64,000 bases of DNA from Sphingomonas sp. NBWT7 (lineage in GTDB: Bacteria; Pseudomonadota; Alphaproteobacteria; Sphingomonadales; Sphingomonadaceae): the NCBI RefSeq assembly GCF_014217605.1, contig NZ_CP043639.1:2193501-2257500 (forward strand), given 5' to 3'. This document shows positions 4,494 through 46,402 of this stretch, in pieces. The first letter of the stretch is position 1. Every line of letters begins with the position of its first letter. Position numbers and translations under genes: made by a program. The notes under the pieces were generated by a model. That model had not been told where the DNA came from, ran no database searches, and saw only the letters and a program-made list of their open reading frames with translations.

Positions 4494-4848
4494 CGTCGCG
4501 TTCGATGCGGTGCGCTCAGCCAAGGGTGTGCTGCGCGTCTGCCTGACCGCCGATCCCGAAAACTTCCCGACCTGCGTCGACGATCACAATGCCACGCGCC
4601 GCTCCGTTCCGGCGGGCAGCGACGCGCTGCGCTTCGACGGGCTGCCGCGCGGTACCTACGCGATCGCGGTGATCCACGATGAGAACGGCAACAAGAAGCT
4701 CGATACCTTTGCCGGTATCCCGCGCGAAGGCTTCGGCTTCTCGCGCAATCCGCCGATCCGCTTCGGCCCGCCGCGATTCGCCGCCGCGCGCTTCGCGGTC
4801 GAAGGTGATGCCGAAAGGCAACAGATCAAAATGCGCTACATGCTGTGA
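4402..4848 (+). CDS. DUF2141 family exported protein
   Basis: A small secreted protein of about 148 residues with the DUF2141 pattern: a beta-rich domain containing F-D-G-L-P-R-G-T-Y-A-I-A-V-I-H-D-E-N-G-N-K-K-L-D-type spacing (D-x-N-G-N-K-x-L-D), and a C-terminal P-R-F-x2-A-R-F strand. Function of the family is unknown. An ATG at 4336 is also in frame, but I prefer the GTG at 4402 because translation from there begins directly with a signal peptide (basic start, L-L-L-A-L-A-A core, A-A-P cleavage region). With this start it overlaps the 3' end of the hydroxylase gene by about 92 bp, so coupling is likely. Start confidence is moderate. Confidence 0.75.
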   Translation: MIAPARRPAQALLLALAASTLIGAAPVARLDVAFDAVRSAKGVLRVCLTADPENFPTCVDDHNATRRSVPAGSDALRFDGLPRGTYAIAVIHDENGNKKLDTFAGIPREGFGFSRNPPIRFGPPRFAAARFAVEGDAERQQIKMRYML

Positions 4849-4916
4849 GCGGCACTGGTCGGAGCTAAAGCAGATCAGGCGGGTTTGCGTCCCTTGTAAG
4901 AAGGGGACAATTTCTC

Positions 4917-32473: not shown

Positions 32474-35299
32474 CTACAATCGGCGCAGCGCGGCGGCGAG
32501 ATCGGCCTGCACGAACGGCTTCGTCAGGCGGGAAAGCGTCGCCGGGATCCCCCCCTCCTCGGCATAGCCCGAAATGATGAGCACCTTGGTCGCGGTGGTT
32601 CGGTCGCGCACCGCCGCGGCGAGCTCGCCCCCCGTCATTCCCGGCATGACATGGTCGGTCACCAGCAGGTCGGGCGCGAACCCGCGTTCGATCAGCCCCC
32701 AGGCTTCCTCCGCAGACGCGGCGCTTGTCACCGCGAAGCCCAGATCGGCCAGCATCTGCGCAGCGGATTCGCGCACTGCATCCTCGTCGTCGACCAGCAG
32801 CGCGCTGCCGCCGCGCTCGGGGGCGGTGACATCGTACAATGGCGGCGCTGCGATCGCGACCTGCGCACTCTGCGGTAGCCACAAGGCGATCGTCGTGCCC
32901 TGGTTCGGCCGGCTTTCGATCGTCAGTGCGCCGCCCAGCTGCGCGGCCAGACCATGCGCCATCGATAGGCCGAGCCCGGTCCCGCGCCCGACGCCCTTGG
33001 TCGAGAAAAAGGGTTCGATCGCGCGCAGGCGCGTTTCATCGTCCATCCCCACCCCGGTATCGGTAACGGTGAGGCACACATATTGGCCCGCCGGCGGCCC
33101 ACCCGGGTCAGCACGATCGCCGCTGTCCGGCGTGACCGCCACCTGATCGACCGCGATGCGCAGCGTCCCGCCGTCCGGCATCGCATCGCGCGCATTCACG
33201 CTGAGGTTGAGCAACGCCATCTCCAGCTGGTTCGCATCCGCCAGCGCGGCGGGCAGCCCGTCCGGCGCCGCCACCTCGATCCGCACCGTCGGCCCGATCG
33301 CGCTCGCGACGAGCTCGACGATGCCGGTGACGAGCGCCGCGACGTCGACCGGTACCGGCTGCAACGGCTGGCGCCGCGCGAACGACAACAGCCGCTGGAC
33401 GAGAACGCGCGCGCGCTCCGCCGATTGCAGCGCGCCGCCAATCAGGCGCCGGTCACGCTCGTCACCCATGCCCTTGCGATGCAGCCGGTCGAGCACACCC
33501 ATGATCGGCGTCAGCAGATTGTTGAAATCGTGCGCCACGCCGCCGGTCAGCTGCCCCATCGCTTCCATCTTCTGCGACTGGCGCAGCGCATCTTCCGCCG
33601 AAACCTGCGCGGTGATGTCACGGCTTGATCCGATTACCTTGACGATCGCGCCATCCGGGCCTTGCAGCGGCACCAGCGTCGTATCCCAATGCTGCGGCAC
33701 ACCGCCCAGCGTCACGACTTCGCGATAACGATGGATCGCGCGCGTCGCGACGACGTGATGATAGGTGCCGATGACGCGTTCGGCCGCTCGGCGGGGCAGG
33801 ATGTCGTCGATTCGCTTGCCACGTATCTGCTCGAGCGGATAGCCGACGCCCCGCTCGTGCGCCGGGTTCACCTGTTCGACGACGAAGCCGCCGTCTGCCG
33901 CCACACCGATGACGAACAACGGATCGGGGGCGTTCTCGAAATAGGCGCGGTACAGCTCGTCGGTCTCGCGCCGTGCCTGTTCCGCGAGCCGCAGCTCGCG
34001 CGTCCGCGCGTCCACCCGCGCCTCCAGCGTGGCGTTGAGCTCGCGCAGCTGCGCCTCTGCGCGCACGCGTTCGATGACCAGACGAATGCGGTCGGCGATC
34101 TCCTCCATGAAGGTCACCTCGTCCGACCGCCAGGCGCGCGGCTGACGGCTGTTGAGGTACACGATCGTTCGCAGCCGTCCGTCGCGCACGAACGGCACGA
34201 CCAGGATCGCGCGAGTATCGCCCAGCCGCGCGGTATCGTGCGCACCCTGCTCGTCGCTCAAGGCGGCGCTGAAGATATCGTCGATGACAACGGTCTCGCC
34301 GTTGCCCAGCGCCTGCGCGATCCGGCGGCCGAAGGCTGCGGCCGGGAACCGCCCGGTTAATCGCGGCACCGATCCGTCGGTCCAGCACAGGCGATAATCG
34401 AATACGTCGGCTTCCGGATCGAGGTCCCCGAAACCGGCGCGCGCCACGCGGAAATGCGTACCCAGCAGCTCCGCGACCCGCGACAGCGCCACCTCAGCAT
34501 CGTCGCCGCGCAGAATATCGGCGACTTCGAGGCGAAGGGCGCTACGTGCCTCGCGCCGCCGAGCGCCCTGGAATGCCCGCTCCACGCGCGCCGCGCCGAG
34601 CGACAACAGCAGGATCAGTATCGTGACGATGCTGATCGCGACGGCGAGATAGGCTTGGCCGACACTCGCGACGCCTGTCGCCGCGTCGATTTGCGCCGAC
34701 GCCGTGAAGGTCGCGGCGTACATGCCGGCGTAATGCATCCCCGCGATCGCCGCGCCCATCACGCCGGCGGCAAGTACCCGCCCGCGCAAGCCCTGCTCGC
34801 GCGACGCGAGCCAAACGGCGGCGGTCGCCGCGACCACCGCGATCGCAACCGAGAGCGTGACCCAGCGCGGGTCGTAGCGCACCGTCGCGGGCATCCGCAT
34901 CGCCGCCATGCCGACATAGTGCATCGCGACGACACCCGTGGCGATCAGCAGACCGGCGGCGCCGGTCCGTCGCGAGGCCGCGTGCTGCCAGTCGATCGTC
35001 GCCAGCCCGGCGGCGGTGAAGCCGATCGCCAGAGCGAGCGAACCGACCGTCAGCCCCGGGTCGTAGCTCATCGTCATGCCCGGCATCGAGAAAGCAAGCA
35101 TCGCCACGAAGTGCATCGACCAGATGCCGCCGCCCAGCGTGACCGCCGCAGCGGCCAGCCACACCCGCCGCCACTGCCCCTGCGATGCCCGGATCCGACC
35201 AGCGAGACTGAGCGCGGTGAACGACGCAAAGGCTGCAACCGCGAGGGAAAGGATCACCAGGTAACTGTCGTGCGTACCGTTCATGATCATCGGCGGCAT
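32474..35299 (-). CDS. MHYT-domain hybrid sensor histidine kinase
   Basis: About 941 residues. An N-terminal membrane sensor (about 1-240) carries three MHYT repeats (M-H-F-V-A-M, M-H-Y-V-G-M, M-H-Y-A-G-M), proposed to bind metal and sense O2, CO or NO. A GAF-like region, a helical linker and a PAS domain (about 425-540) follow. The phospho-acceptor box is G-G-V-A-H-D-F-N-N-L-L (His about 588), then an ATPase domain with N-A-R-D-A-M and G-x-G-L-G-L-S, and a C-terminal receiver with D-L-L-V-T-D (Asp about 883). Start ATG 35299 has an aagga site. No separate response regulator is adjacent. Confidence 0.92.
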   Translation of the reverse strand: MPPMIMNGTHDSYLVILSLAVAAFASFTALSLAGRIRASQGQWRRVWLAAAAVTLGGGIWSMHFVAMLAFSMPGMTMSYDPGLTVGSLALAIGFTAAGLATIDWQHAASRRTGAAGLLIATGVVAMHYVGMAAMRMPATVRYDPRWVTLSVAIAVVAATAAVWLASREQGLRGRVLAAGVMGAAIAGMHYAGMYAATFTASAQIDAATGVASVGQAYLAVAISIVTILILLLSLGAARVERAFQGARRREARSALRLEVADILRGDDAEVALSRVAELLGTHFRVARAGFGDLDPEADVFDYRLCWTDGSVPRLTGRFPAAAFGRRIAQALGNGETVVIDDIFSAALSDEQGAHDTARLGDTRAILVVPFVRDGRLRTIVYLNSRQPRAWRSDEVTFMEEIADRIRLVIERVRAEAQLRELNATLEARVDARTRELRLAEQARRETDELYRAYFENAPDPLFVIGVAADGGFVVEQVNPAHERGVGYPLEQIRGKRIDDILPRRAAERVIGTYHHVVATRAIHRYREVVTLGGVPQHWDTTLVPLQGPDGAIVKVIGSSRDITAQVSAEDALRQSQKMEAMGQLTGGVAHDFNNLLTPIMGVLDRLHRKGMGDERDRRLIGGALQSAERARVLVQRLLSFARRQPLQPVPVDVAALVTGIVELVASAIGPTVRIEVAAPDGLPAALADANQLEMALLNLSVNARDAMPDGGTLRIAVDQVAVTPDSGDRADPGGPPAGQYVCLTVTDTGVGMDDETRLRAIEPFFSTKGVGRGTGLGLSMAHGLAAQLGGALTIESRPNQGTTIALWLPQSAQVAIAAPPLYDVTAPERGGSALLVDDEDAVRESAAQMLADLGFAVTSAASAEEAWGLIERGFAPDLLVTDHVMPGMTGGELAAAVRDRTTATKVLIISGYAEEGGIPATLSRLTKPFVQADLAAALRRL

Positions 35300-35642
35300 G
35301 GTTCCTTCAACGCTCGCCCGCAAGCGTCCCGATACGCAGCTGCACTCGCCCGCCTCTCGCCGAAATCGCATCGGCGGTAAAGCAATCTGCGCGCATCGAA
35401 GCCCACCCCTTGTGCCGGGGGGAGAAAATGCCACCGCCACCGCAGACCCCCGATCACGGCCCGGCCCTCAGCGCGAGCATCGACGCGAGACACCGTGACA
35501 CGCTCCCCGGCACGTCGACCGGGGGTTTGCTTGCAACATTCGACGGTTGGCCGGTGTATCGAGGCGGTCACATGGGCTTGCACCAGGCCTGGCGCCGGCA
35601 ATTGTCCTGCGCCGCGGCTGCGCGATCCGGCACGCCGATCGT
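35300..35642. other. Intergenic region without a supported gene
   Basis: This stretch lies upstream of the MHYT kinase and beyond the small RNA terminator. Frames open on both strands are arginine/serine-rich shadows. It must hold the MHYT kinase promoter, but no clear promoter boxes, repeats or RNA hairpins were recognised. Confidence 0.5.
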
Positions 35643-35683
35643 AAAAAAAGGCCACACGCGCTTCCCCCGAAGCCCGTGTGGCC
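35643..35683 (-). terminator. Intrinsic terminator of the candidate small RNA
   Basis: Perfect 9-bp stem (35650-35658 with 35675-35683), an internal gctt/aagc extension, and seven consecutive Ts on the minus strand. It is the clearest Rho-independent terminator in the window. Confidence 0.85.
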
Positions 35684-35760
35684 AGTCGTCGCATTCAACG
35701 AGTTTCCTCGTTGCGCGCTCAAATAGCGCCCCCGACACGCGCCGTCGTTGGATAGGCGTC
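35643..35760 (-). ncRNA. Candidate structured small RNA (about 118 nt) with own promoter and terminator
   Basis: On the minus strand the transcript would begin near 35760 and contain a small hairpin gcgct-atttg-agcgc (35729-35715), a perfect 7-bp hairpin caacgag-gaaa-ctcgttg with a GNRA tetraloop (35713-35696), and a 9-bp GC stem ggccacacg/cgtgtggcc followed by seven Ts (35683-35643), a textbook intrinsic terminator. A promoter-like TTGACG...CTAAAT pair lies just upstream. No plausible ORF with a ribosome site occupies it. No named RNA family was recognised. The combination of consecutive stable hairpins, promoter and terminator makes this a strong RNA-gene candidate. Confidence 0.7.
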
Positions 35761-35764
35761 CCAA

Positions 35765-35794
35765 ATTTAGGTGCGTAGTGGATCAGATCGTCAA
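35765..35794 (-). promoter_or_regulatory. Sigma-70-type promoter for the candidate small RNA
   Basis: On the minus strand TTGACG (35794-35789) is followed after 18 bases by CTAAAT (35770-35765). The first box matches 5 of 6 of the -35 consensus; the second is a moderate -10. The predicted start, about 5-7 bases on, falls at the base of the first structured segment. Confidence 0.5.
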
Positions 35795-35988
35795 CCCCAG
35801 GGCCTCCCGGGCACGATCCGTCCAAAGGCACGGCATGCGAATGGTTGTCTCTAACCCGCCGCCGCGAAGCCGAATGGCCACGCGTTCAGCTTACCGCCCA
35901 GGCCACCGCCATATGTGCTGCTTCGGATCGCGCCTCACGACGAACGCGCCGTCATCGGCATGGCAAGCGGCAATCAATGGAAAGCCGA

Positions 35989-36306
35989 TCAGCGCCCCGC
36001 TCGTGCCGGTGGCGCGCGCCAACCCGAAGCCTCGTCGACGTAGGCGGTGCGGGTACGCTTGTTATAAAGGCACAGCATTGCCGGTTTACGCCCCTGGCCG
36101 TTCACCAGCATCGCCACCATGCCGACGCGATCGTCGAAGCCGACGATCGATGAAACGCGCGCGCCGCGCATGCCGCTCGCCGCGATGCAAGCTTTAGTCA
36201 CGCGGGTGTTGAACTGCGCCCATGCGGCATCGCTCGATGCGAGCGCGCGGCCCGCCGTCGCCACGCCGGCAATCGACATGACCATTGCCATAATTGCTTT
36301 GCGCAT
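35989..36306 (-). CDS. Small exported hypothetical protein
   Basis: A 105-residue protein with a signal peptide (about 1-23, ending A-L-A-S), then one compact domain containing two cysteines (C40 in T-K-A-C-I-A-A-S-G and C79 in M-L-C-L-Y-N-K-R-T), suggesting a disulfide. The ribosome site ggaggaa before the ATG at 36306 is strong. The C-terminus V-D-E-A-S-G-W-R-A-P is short and variable. No named family recognised; periplasmic location is inferred. Confidence 0.7.
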   Translation of the reverse strand: MRKAIMAMVMSIAGVATAGRALASSDAAWAQFNTRVTKACIAASGMRGARVSSIVGFDDRVGMVAMLVNGQGRKPAMLCLYNKRTRTAYVDEASGWRAPPARAGR

Positions 36307-36401: not shown

Positions 36402-37844
36402 TCAGCCTGTGACGACCAGCTTCACCAGCGTGCCGGGCACCAACCGCGCGTCGGGGGCAAGGCCGTTGATCGTCAGGAAGCGATCGCGCTGCAGATCGGC
36501 ATAGGCCATCTGCCGGGCAAGCGTGTCGATCGTGTCGCCCGCGCGGACGGTGTGGATGCGGATGCGCTTACCGCGCACCGCCTCGGCCTCGCGGGTGGTC
36601 AGCGTCGTGAAGCTCGCCAGCAGCGGCTCGAACGCGGCAGCGCCGCTCCCTGCCGGCGTCACGATCGTCCACAGATATGTCGCGCCGTTCAGCGGCATCG
36701 CCACCACCGTCGCATCGATGCGCTGGTTGTTGGCGGTTGCGGAGACGGTAGCGCTCGACGCGGGGCGGCCGTCGATCGTTACAGGCTGGACCTGCTCGCT
36801 CGACACGCGCGCGCCGAGCTTCTGGAATTGCTGGACGACGGCGGCGGCGGGATCGCGCGCGCCGGCGGGCGCTGCACTCAGCTGCGCCTGTCCGCGCGGC
36901 CCCTGCACCGTCACCGCCTGCGTCGAATTGGCGATTTTGTAACCCGGCGGCGCGATGAACTTGATGCGCATCGCCGGATGGCGGAACGTCTGCCCGTCGA
37001 TCACGCCCTGCGCCGGATCGTCGTCGTACCGCAGCCCATCGAGCATCCGCAGGAACGCCGTGTCCTGCGCCGCCCCCGCCCCGCCGCGCCCCGCCTGCTG
37101 CGCAAGCGCGCGGGCCCGCGCGACGCGATCGTTGCTGGAGGGATGCGTGCTCAGCCACGTTGGAACGGCATTGGCATCGCCCCCCGACGCGCGCGCGGTC
37201 AGCGACGTGCTCGCGCCCAGCTGCCCGAGGATCAGCGGCGCCGCGGCGGGATCATAGCCCGCGCCGGCGACATAGCGCACGCCGAGACCATCGGCCTGAT
37301 ATTCCTGGTCGCGCCCGTATTTCAGTCCGTAGAGCTGCGAGGCGCGCTGCGCACCGCCCGCCACCAGTTGTCCCAGCGCCGAATTGCCCACCGCCGCGCC
37401 GACGATCCCGGCGAGCACCCCGCCGATCGTCGAGGTGCGCTGGCGCCCGGCCGAGTGACGCGCCGCGACATGCCCCACTTCGTGCCCCATGACGAACGCC
37501 AGTTCGTCCTCGCTGTTCATCAGCGCCAGCAGCTGCCGCGTCACATAGATATACCCGCCGGGGATCGCGAAGGCGTTCTCGACCGGCGAGTTGAGCAGCT
37601 GGACGGTGAAGTCGCCCTGCGCGTTCGACAGGCCCGATTGCAGCGCGACGCGCTTGCCGACGCGTTCGACGAACGCCGCCTGCGGGCCATCGTAGCGCCC
37701 GCCATATTCGGCAACGAGCTGCGGACTGGCCTGTGCGCCCTGTGCCCGATCGATCTGCGATATCGAGCGTGTCGTCTGCGCGGAAGCCGCGGCGGGCGAG
37801 AGAAACAGCGCCGCAGCCGCGGGGATCAGGACAAAGGTGCGCAA
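36402..37844 (-). CDS. M48 family metalloprotease with C-terminal LysM-like domain
   Basis: About 480 residues. A signal peptide (F-V-L-I-P-A-A-A-A-L-F-L, cut near S-A-Q) leads to an M48 peptidase domain with zinc motif H-E-V-G-H and a preceding N-A-F-A-I-P-G-G-Y-I-Y-V-T-R-Q-L segment, then Y-G-R-D-Q-E-Y-Q-A-D as the third-ligand region. The C-terminal ~55 residues (H-T-V-R-A-G-D-T-I-D-T-L-A-R) resemble a LysM peptidoglycan-binding module. It resembles periplasmic chaperone-proteases such as BepA. The TTG at 37844 is chosen: it follows ggagtgaacgc and directly begins the signal peptide; the longer frame adds unlikely residues. Confidence 0.88.
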   Translation of the reverse strand: MRTFVLIPAAAALFLSPAAASAQTTRSISQIDRAQGAQASPQLVAEYGGRYDGPQAAFVERVGKRVALQSGLSNAQGDFTVQLLNSPVENAFAIPGGYIYVTRQLLALMNSEDELAFVMGHEVGHVAARHSAGRQRTSTIGGVLAGIVGAAVGNSALGQLVAGGAQRASQLYGLKYGRDQEYQADGLGVRYVAGAGYDPAAAPLILGQLGASTSLTARASGGDANAVPTWLSTHPSSNDRVARARALAQQAGRGGAGAAQDTAFLRMLDGLRYDDDPAQGVIDGQTFRHPAMRIKFIAPPGYKIANSTQAVTVQGPRGQAQLSAAPAGARDPAAAVVQQFQKLGARVSSEQVQPVTIDGRPASSATVSATANNQRIDATVVAMPLNGATYLWTIVTPAGSGAAAFEPLLASFTTLTTREAEAVRGKRIRIHTVRAGDTIDTLARQMAYADLQRDRFLTINGLAPDARLVPGTLVKLVVTG

Positions 37845-38156
37845 GCGTTCACTCCATATTTCACCGCCGATCAGGGACCACGTCTGGCCGGTGATCGACG
37901 CCAATCCATATGCGGGACGTTACGCAGGCAGACGGTGAATTGTTGCATCGGCGAAAGCCACCGTCGCATGTTCTTCGTGCGAAACGACGCGCTGCCCAGT
38001 TAGTCAGGCGCCGTTATCTTCTCATAGAGGTACGCAGACTACATCGCTTATGGCGCGCCCGTTCGCACTTTGCGCCGTTCGTCCATATCGATCCGCCACG
38101 CCCGGGCGATCTGACTGTTTCACACGTCGAACGGTGCGGCCGTCACCGCCACCCCG
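37845..38156. other. Intergenic region without a supported gene
   Basis: This lies between the M48 protease start and the small protein at 38157. Open frames here are arginine-rich and lack ribosome sites. No convincing hairpin, repeat or promoter was recognised apart from the expected protease promoter. Confidence 0.5.
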
Positions 38157-45000: not shown

Positions 45001-45235
45001 GCGTCGGGCGATAACGGGTGCGACGCTCGCCTTCGTCACCGCCGCGTCGATAAGGTAGCGTCGCGCCCCTGATCGAGTGCGGCGTCACGGGCGAGTGAGT
45101 GTTGCTGGCGAAAGCCTGCTATTGACCGGCCGCTAACCATTGCGGATTAGCGCGCTCGCACAGGGGAAGCGAGCTCCGGCGCCGCATCATCGCGCCGCGC
45201 GCGGGGCAGCGATCGGACAGGGCGGGCGACGGACG

Positions 45236-46402
45236 ATGAAGATAGCGGTTTTCGGGCTTGGCTATGTCGGCCTGTCGAATGCGGTGCTGCTGGCGCAGCA
45301 TAACGAGGTCGCCGCGGTGGACATCACGCCCGAACGCGTCGAGATGCTCAACGCGCGCCGCTCGCCGATCGTCGATCACGAGCTCGCGGCGTTCCTCGCG
45401 GAGAAGCCGCTCAATCTCACCGCGACGCTCGATCCCGTCGAAGCGCTCGCCGGCGCCGACTATGTCATCGTTGCGACGCCGACCAACTACGACGTCGACA
45501 CCAACAAGTTCGACACCTCGTCGGTCGAGGCGGTGATCGCCACCGCGATCGCACACAACCGGACCGCGACGATCGTCGTCAAGTCGACCATCCCCGTCGG
45601 CTTCGTCGACGACGTGCGCGCGCGGCTCGGCACCGATCAGGTGATCTTCAGCCCCGAGTTCCTGCGCGAGGGCCGCGCGCTGCACGACAACCTCCATCCC
45701 TCGCGCATCATCGTCGGCGAGCGGTCCGAACGCGCGCGCGTCTTTGCCGACCTGCTGCTCGGCGGCGCGGTGAAGAAGGACGTCGAGATCCTGTTCACCG
45801 ACGCGCGCGAGGCCGAGGCGATCAAGCTGTTCGCCAACACCTACCTCGCGATGCGCGTCGCCTTCTTCAACGAACTCGACAGCTACGCGATCGCCGGCGG
45901 CATGGATTCGCGCCAGATCATCGACGGCATCGGCCTCGATCCGCGGATCGGCACGCACTACAACAATCCCAGCTTCGGCTACGGCGGCTACTGCCTGCCC
46001 AAGGACACCAAGCAGCTGCTCGCCAATTATTCCGAGGTGCCGCAGAATTTGATCCGCGCGATCGTCGACGCCAATCGCACGCGCAAGGATTTCCTCGCCG
46101 ATCGCATCATCGCGCTGCACCCGCGCACGGTTGGCGTGTTCCGCCTCGTGATGAAGGCAGGATCGGACAATTTCCGCCAATCGTCGATCCAGGGCATCAT
46201 GAAGCGGATCAAGGCGAAGGGGATCCAGGTGGTGATCTTCGAGCCCGCAATGGCCGACGACGAGTTCTTCGGCTCGCGCGTCATCCGCGACCTCGACGCG
46301 TTCAAGCGCGAAGCCGACGTCATCATCGCCAACCGCAACACCGACGAACTCGCCGACGTCGCCGACAAGGTCTTCACCCGCGACCTCTTCGGGTCGGACT
46401 GA
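45236..46402 (+). CDS. UDP-glucose/nucleotide-sugar 6-dehydrogenase
   Basis: A 388-residue enzyme. The N-terminal NAD site is [10 protein letters not shown] (5-14). S-T-I-P-V-G-F and [13 protein letters not shown] follow, with the catalytic region [10 protein letters not shown] containing the active cysteine. It oxidises UDP-glucose (or a related nucleotide sugar) to the uronate, a precursor for exopolysaccharide or [11 protein letters not shown] in the dimer helix supports the short Ugd class. The ATG at 45236 starts exactly at the Rossmann strand. No other polysaccharide genes flank it. Confidence 0.93.

Follow-up and report, generated by a model that had tools for sequence, protein, structure and literature searches.

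Does the space between the genes for a small exported protein and an MHYT-domain hybrid kinase encode an RNA of its own and, if so, where does this RNA begin? The question is raised by a 64-kb stretch of DNA from Sphingomonas sp. NBWT7 (the window), in which the first-pass annotation had placed an unnamed structured small RNA ending in a terminator. Its location was found as described, the order on the minus strand being M48 protease gene, gene for the 105-aa exported protein, the element in question and the MHYT hybrid kinase gene, which starts at 35299. We favour a small RNA gene of about 72 nt with a weak, probably activator-aided σ70-like promoter and a linker that would pair with mRNAs with the help of Hfq, found so far in two related species; we assign this reading a probability of about 55%. 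The fold, a conserved island in a relative and the lack of an Rfam family speak for the annotated RNA as such but not for its promoter, its length of about 118 nt and one of its hairpins, since these are located in unconserved or unstructured sequence. Coordinates are compiled in Table 1.

Table 1. Features of the element and its surroundings (positions of the window)
Feature	Position	Strand	Basis or remark
Proposed small RNA, ~72 nt	35643..35714	-	fold z and invariant bases; putative start, +/- about 2 nt
5' hairpin, 7 bp, CAACGAG-GAAA-CTCGTTG, GAAA tetraloop	35696..35713	-	7/7 pairs unchanged in both species
Invariant unpaired 12-nt linker AATGCGACGACT, candidate seed	35684..35695	-	MFE and centroid structures of both species
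Intrinsic terminator stem-loop	35650..35683	-	inner stem carries one double change, C-G to T-A
Terminator T7 tail	35643..35649	-	read from the letters
Conserved upstream block	35743..35765	-	22/23; read as promoter/operator DNA; structure not above chance
Dyad TTGG-N9-CCAA, candidate activator site	35748..35764	-	17/17 identical; centre about -42 from proposed start
Proposed partial -35, AACGAC (window)/AAGGAC (TZW2008)	35744..35749	-	joint consensus scan
16 variable positions, no gap; form the N17 spacer together with 35743	35727..35742	-	4/16 identical
Proposed -10, CTATTT (window)/CTATCT (TZW2008)	35721..35726	-	conservation and joint scan
Promoter of the first-pass annotation, TTGACG-N18-CTAAAT	35765..35794	-	unconserved; judged not the promoter
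MHYT-GAF-PAS-HisKA-HATPase-receiver hybrid kinase gene	32474..35299	-	downstream of element; Pfam; start backed by ortholog
Small exported protein gene, 105 aa	35989..36306	-	upstream of element
M48 protease gene	36402-37904	-	upstream of small exported protein gene

The element was compared with Sphingomonas sp. TZW2008, in which an ortholog at 87% (L042) was found when named genome contigs were scanned with the kinase. We take genome G213, whose small exported protein is 72% identical (L034), to be that of TZW2008, as L034 gives the same alignments. The element is syntenic in this strain: a blast search with the region returned an isolated 124-nt match of 84.7% between the two genes. Otherwise it recovered the genes on either side, some short or weak matches inside these genes and a match of 26 nt in L002. 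The alignment comprises 126 gapless columns, 103 of which are identical. On either side, identity is at the level of shuffled sequence, with 123 identities upstream over 220 bases (0.559; mean of shuffles 0.534, maximum 0.573) and 200 of 342 downstream (0.585; shuffled mean 0.567, maximum 0.599). Because a conserved island thus lies between such flanks, we conclude that the element is real and under selection. It is, however, shorter than first drawn.

Conservation within the island is uneven. Columns 4-26 differ at a single position, columns 27-42 agree at random level with fixed length and no indel, and columns 43-51 retain CTAT-T--G (6/9 identical). Columns 51-94 (35675-35718) are invariant in 44 of 44 positions, a run that reaches into the terminator, to which the remaining columns belong. 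Identity at four-fold sites between window and TZW2008 amounts to 373/537 in the kinase gene, 23/52 in the small gene and 235/303 in the M48 gene; the probability of the run is about 1e-7 at the value of the MHYT gene (0.695; 69.5%) and, by hand arithmetic, about 1e-5 at the 0.776 of M48. Among the 69 exact runs of at least 30 that positions 29001-58300 of the window share with eight TZW2008 stretches, counted without regard to coding, it ties at about rank 22-25, and it is the only one starting within 35300-36000.

On a larger scale, positions 1-28206 of the window are about 94% identical to TZW2008 and the syntenic stretches in 30366-58234 only about 75-89%. This sharp step near 28-30 kb is perhaps due to recombination or to a slowly evolving cluster. 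Positions 45224-46402 match two places in TZW2008, one at 94.9% and one inside an 83% stretch, and look like a gene of about 1.2 kb that is duplicated and highly conserved; our guess would be EF-Tu.

Predicted structure is confined to the downstream part of the island. The 3' portion of about 72 nt folds far better than its shuffles (z -6.9 in the window, -6.0 in TZW2008), the 5' 55 nt fold at chance level (z -0.3 and +0.3, respectively), and for the full 125 nt (z -4.8) the better-than-chance signal comes from the last 72 nt. The annotated 9-bp GC terminator with seven Ts was confirmed on the minus strand; its outer stem GGCCACACG/CGTGTGGCC consists of 9 bp, 7 of them G-C, and encloses an inner stem. 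A simple terminator scan listed the TZW2008 terminator, and the window's was absent from its output. Two compact hairpins had been proposed upstream, of which the 7-bp GAAA hairpin is conserved and the CGCTATTTGAGCG hairpin is not in the sole relative available. Comparison with relatives had been suggested as a check on these hairpins, and it yields invariance of the 7-bp stem in TZW2008 on the one hand and, on the other, one compensatory pair in 21, a covariation that 248 of 500 shuffles equal with n=2 sequences. The linker between hairpin and terminator is invariant and unpaired in the predicted folds of both species, that is, in two sequences only.

As structure is found only in the 3' 72 nt, the conserved block at the 5' end is better read as a DNA signal, and the promoter is better sought in this block, which had been taken as the 5' part of the RNA. 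The alternative is a longer RNA of about 120 nt that starts near 35762 from TTGACG/CTAAAT and opens with the hairpin TTGGG-ACGCCTA-TCCAA. TTGACG is indeed a good -35 hexamer, and the conserved 5' block could be RNA. However, although the motif is present at 35794-35765, both hexamers lie in flanking sequence of random identity and are not kept in TZW2008; CTAAAT agrees with TATAAT at 3/6 positions, and the promoter scan does not count the pair. Since in both species the 5' 55 nt also fold only as well as their shuffles, we regard the longer transcript as quite unlikely; the 5' part of the annotated ~118 nt is unstructured or unconserved, and about 72 nt fits better.

For alphaproteobacteria two sources give the σ70 consensus as CTTGAC-N17-CTATAT (PMC2873474; PMC8844928). 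Scanning CTTGAC-N16-18-CTATAT jointly in window and TZW2008 placed the best site at columns 20-25 and 43-48 with N17 and 8/12 matches in both species, the next best scoring 6. A score of 8/12 is reached by 210/300 and 183/300 shuffles of the single window and TZW2008 sequences, respectively, and the joint score is matched by 125/1000 column permutations; with the scan restricted to the first 60 columns and N17 the figure is 4/1000, but this restriction was picked after the result was known. Stricter promoter scans listed none at the element in either species. Since the stretch between the two hexamers is at random identity yet fixed in length, 4 of 16 positions agreeing without an indel, we read it as a promoter spacer. 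The best reading of the alignment is that the RNA is driven by a weak σ70-like promoter, nnnGAC-N17-CTATnT, within the conserved block, from which RNA polymerase with the housekeeping σ factor would start near 35714. The σ70 -10 region of S. meliloti is described as poorly conserved (PMC3616915).

A weak -35 region together with a dyad centred near -42 would suit the position of a class II activator, and an activator bound to the dyad probably helps the weak promoter. With 4+4 bp matching, the dyad may have arisen by chance. Allowing up to 3 mismatches, its 18-nt block is found once in the window genome and once in TZW2008, so no regulon is seen. In a sphingomonad, sites of the activator Fnr are centred at -41.5 according to PMC7713065, but the Fnr box given there, TTGAc/t-N4-g/aTCAA, differs from TTGG-N9-CCAA. 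Two other σ factors were considered. RpoH promoters of alphaproteobacteria are given as CTTGAA/CTTGCC-N15-16-CCTATAT/CCTATCT (PMC4843759 citing Barnett 2012); TZW2008 reads CCTATCT exactly at the proposed -10 and the window GCTATTT, but inspection found no CTTG at N15-16, columns 20-26 being AACGACG/AAGGACG. The EcfG general-stress promoter, GGAAC-N16-CGTT (PMC7083833), was likewise absent from the 126 aligned columns on inspection. Both were rejected because their -35/-10 pairs are missing.

Searches for known families and for proteins agree with the annotation, which recognised neither. Rfam 15 gave 0 matches at gathering cut-offs over the whole 64 kb, and at E<=10 over 35450-35950 the sole match was a microRNA model with 15.1 bits against a cut-off of 59. 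The four ORF translations over the element had no Pfam match. A protein-coding reading was rejected on this ground and by inspection, since the frames enter the terminator and the differences between the species are mostly amino-acid-changing.

The position of the element behind the small gene raises the possibility that it merely ends the mRNA of the small protein, or of M48 and the small protein, with the ~72-nt RNA at most processed from it. Element and small gene are on the same strand, the distance between them is alike in the two species (220 nt in the window, 202 nt in TZW2008), and the scan of TZW2008 found no terminator in between. Nevertheless, a processed 3' end needs neither a conserved block of 23 nt nor a gapless variable spacer, and the small gene mostly occurs without the element. 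For the 105-aa protein (35989-36306) Pfam gave nothing at E<=0.1, and just 8 of the 295 genus genomes have a match to it. Among the eight small-protein loci outside the window genome, only that of TZW2008 has the element; the other seven showed no match to model R2 and no like terminator. We therefore consider a 3'-UTR product rather unlikely. In another genome (G186) there are two small-protein matches with one internal stop in each.

The small RNA gene that we prefer appears to be narrowly distributed. Model R1, run with strict filters on the 295 genus genomes, matched 13 of them at E<=1, with the window genome (G000) and TZW2008 at 155 bits and the next at 25.2 bits. The other 11 looked like chance (7 viewed as alignments, the match DNA of 10 read), and judged by sequence only the first two genomes match convincingly. 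In 397 family genomes, two R1 matches at E<=0.01 were obtained, self and one of 28.5 bits in G649, which we took by eye for a terminator at the end of a gene. Model R2 had 5 matches at E<=0.1 in 157 order genomes and 8 in 115 class genomes, self included. The best non-self value, 3.3e-4 in G857, belongs to a palindromic stem scoring on both strands; values near 3e-4 mean little because R2 gives 2.9e-4 for the antisense strand of the window itself. The non-self matches in order and class (14 rows, 7 loci as alignments) were judged to be chance, with L216 having a similar GAGGAAACTC hairpin. Genomes for the family, order and class sets were drawn evenly from larger groups; these sets overlap the genus set, and TZW2008 is not among their matches.

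Other searches point in the same direction. The element was not found in plasmids, phages and viral contigs. On 45 loci, R2 recognised, besides the window genome and TZW2008, only L197 (16.1 bits) and L194 (15.3 bits). Blastn with 166 nt against 100 relatives returned self and a 26-nt match in the order-level genome G088 (L002), the latter judged to be chance. If up to 2 mismatches are allowed, 82/295 genus genomes contain the first-hairpin pattern, and its backward control matches too; the recurrent TTGTTGA form looks by eye like one conserved coding sequence. These matches were not taken for this RNA. The nearest M48 relatives, G159 (84%) and G001 (81%), have no small-protein match and, by reading, different DNA in the 1.5 kb downstream of M48. 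With filters off, R1 produced 19 matches at E<=10 in seven M48-relative loci, the best of only 9.5 bits. As it has been seen in two genomes only, the element is either a recent acquisition or has been lost frequently.

Its place directly upstream of the MHYT kinase gene on the same strand, with a hairpin preceding the terminator, would also suit a leader attenuator in which a ligand, a protein or an RNA controls terminator formation. But the distance from terminator to kinase start differs greatly (about 343 nt in the window versus about 758 nt in TZW2008), and the predicted folds contain no structure competing with the terminator. Nine other kinase loci (L043-L049, L077, L094; best segment 45-68% identity) have no comparable upstream terminator, although a weak stem in forward orientation with Ts behind it is present in three of them (L044, L046, L049), and R2 had no match on seven of the nine (L043-L049). 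Attenuation of the kinase gene thus seems very improbable. About 135 nt ahead of the kinase gene, TZW2008 has a further stem (L042 about 4845-4875) that resembles a terminator and runs into eight Ts; the terminator scan of the window listed none on the corresponding strand.

How might the small RNA act? A 5' hairpin, an unpaired linker and a U-tailed terminator make up the form of Hfq-bound regulators. Transcription from the proposed promoter would end at the strong intrinsic terminator to give an RNA of about 72 nt; Hfq would hold its U tail, and the 12-nt linker would base-pair with target mRNAs. Hfq (PF17209) is present over cut-off in 4/4 genomes (G000, G213, G159, G001). In the window genome it is represented by two adjacent matches (L224, G000:C1:865853-866284), an arrangement shared by the other three. 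Since both matches give a 204-aa open frame, they probably belong to one protein with two Hfq domains.

Target searches yielded no convincing candidate. Matches to the complement of the seed numbered 9 versus 12 for the backward-pattern control in the window genome and 10 versus 16 in TZW2008, with the locus itself included in the 9 and the 10. The sites shared by both genomes (L164/L173, L170/L175) by eye do not lie where a sense mRNA begins, and duplex energies for four neighbouring starts in the window and two in TZW2008 were within about 1.4 sd of shuffles. This outcome speaks for a plain strong terminator with regulatory DNA and no functional small RNA, and terminators by themselves can be conserved. 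Yet such an arrangement leaves the invariant 7-bp hairpin and the invariant 12-nt linker unexplained, and we give it little credence.

Two small RNA systems are among the closest known. Rfam includes a suhB family, and the SuhB RNA is set apart from the element through Rfam, none of whose families reaches its cut-off in the window. SuhB of Sphingopyxis granuli TFA is a trans-encoded RNA of 61 nt reported to act with Hfq on a 5' UTR, which resembles the element's RNA in its sphingomonad host and in size (PMC6563040). AbcR1 and AbcR2 of Sinorhizobium, Hfq-binding RNAs of 114-121 nt, are described in PMC8844928 as a tandem pair beside lsrB; the AbcR1 promoter is CTTGAC-N17-CTATAT with an upstream site for a LysR-type activator, and that of AbcR2 is an RpoH1 promoter. 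AbcR1 is thus a precedent for an alphaproteobacterial small RNA with a σ70 promoter and an upstream activator site, as proposed here. Compared by these descriptions, the LsrB site at -61 to -49 has another sequence than the dyad, and the tandem pair of 114-121 nt differs from a single element of about 72 nt.

It is tempting to speculate that the RNA is a young gene of one small Sphingomonas clade which, with a dedicated activator at -42, was installed together with the MHYT kinase and the exported protein as a sensory module and serves as output or feedback arm of the kinase; we consider this elaboration doubtful. The literature on sphingomonad small RNAs, covered in part, mentioned the locus in no title or abstract start among the matches listed. 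To our knowledge, few small RNAs have been characterised in sphingomonads. Measured against Rfam, the present candidate is a new family, though ordinary in kind, and what it offers is a set of exact predictions: a start near 35714, a length of about 72 nt, a named linker that would serve in pairing and a named upstream site at which an activator may bind.
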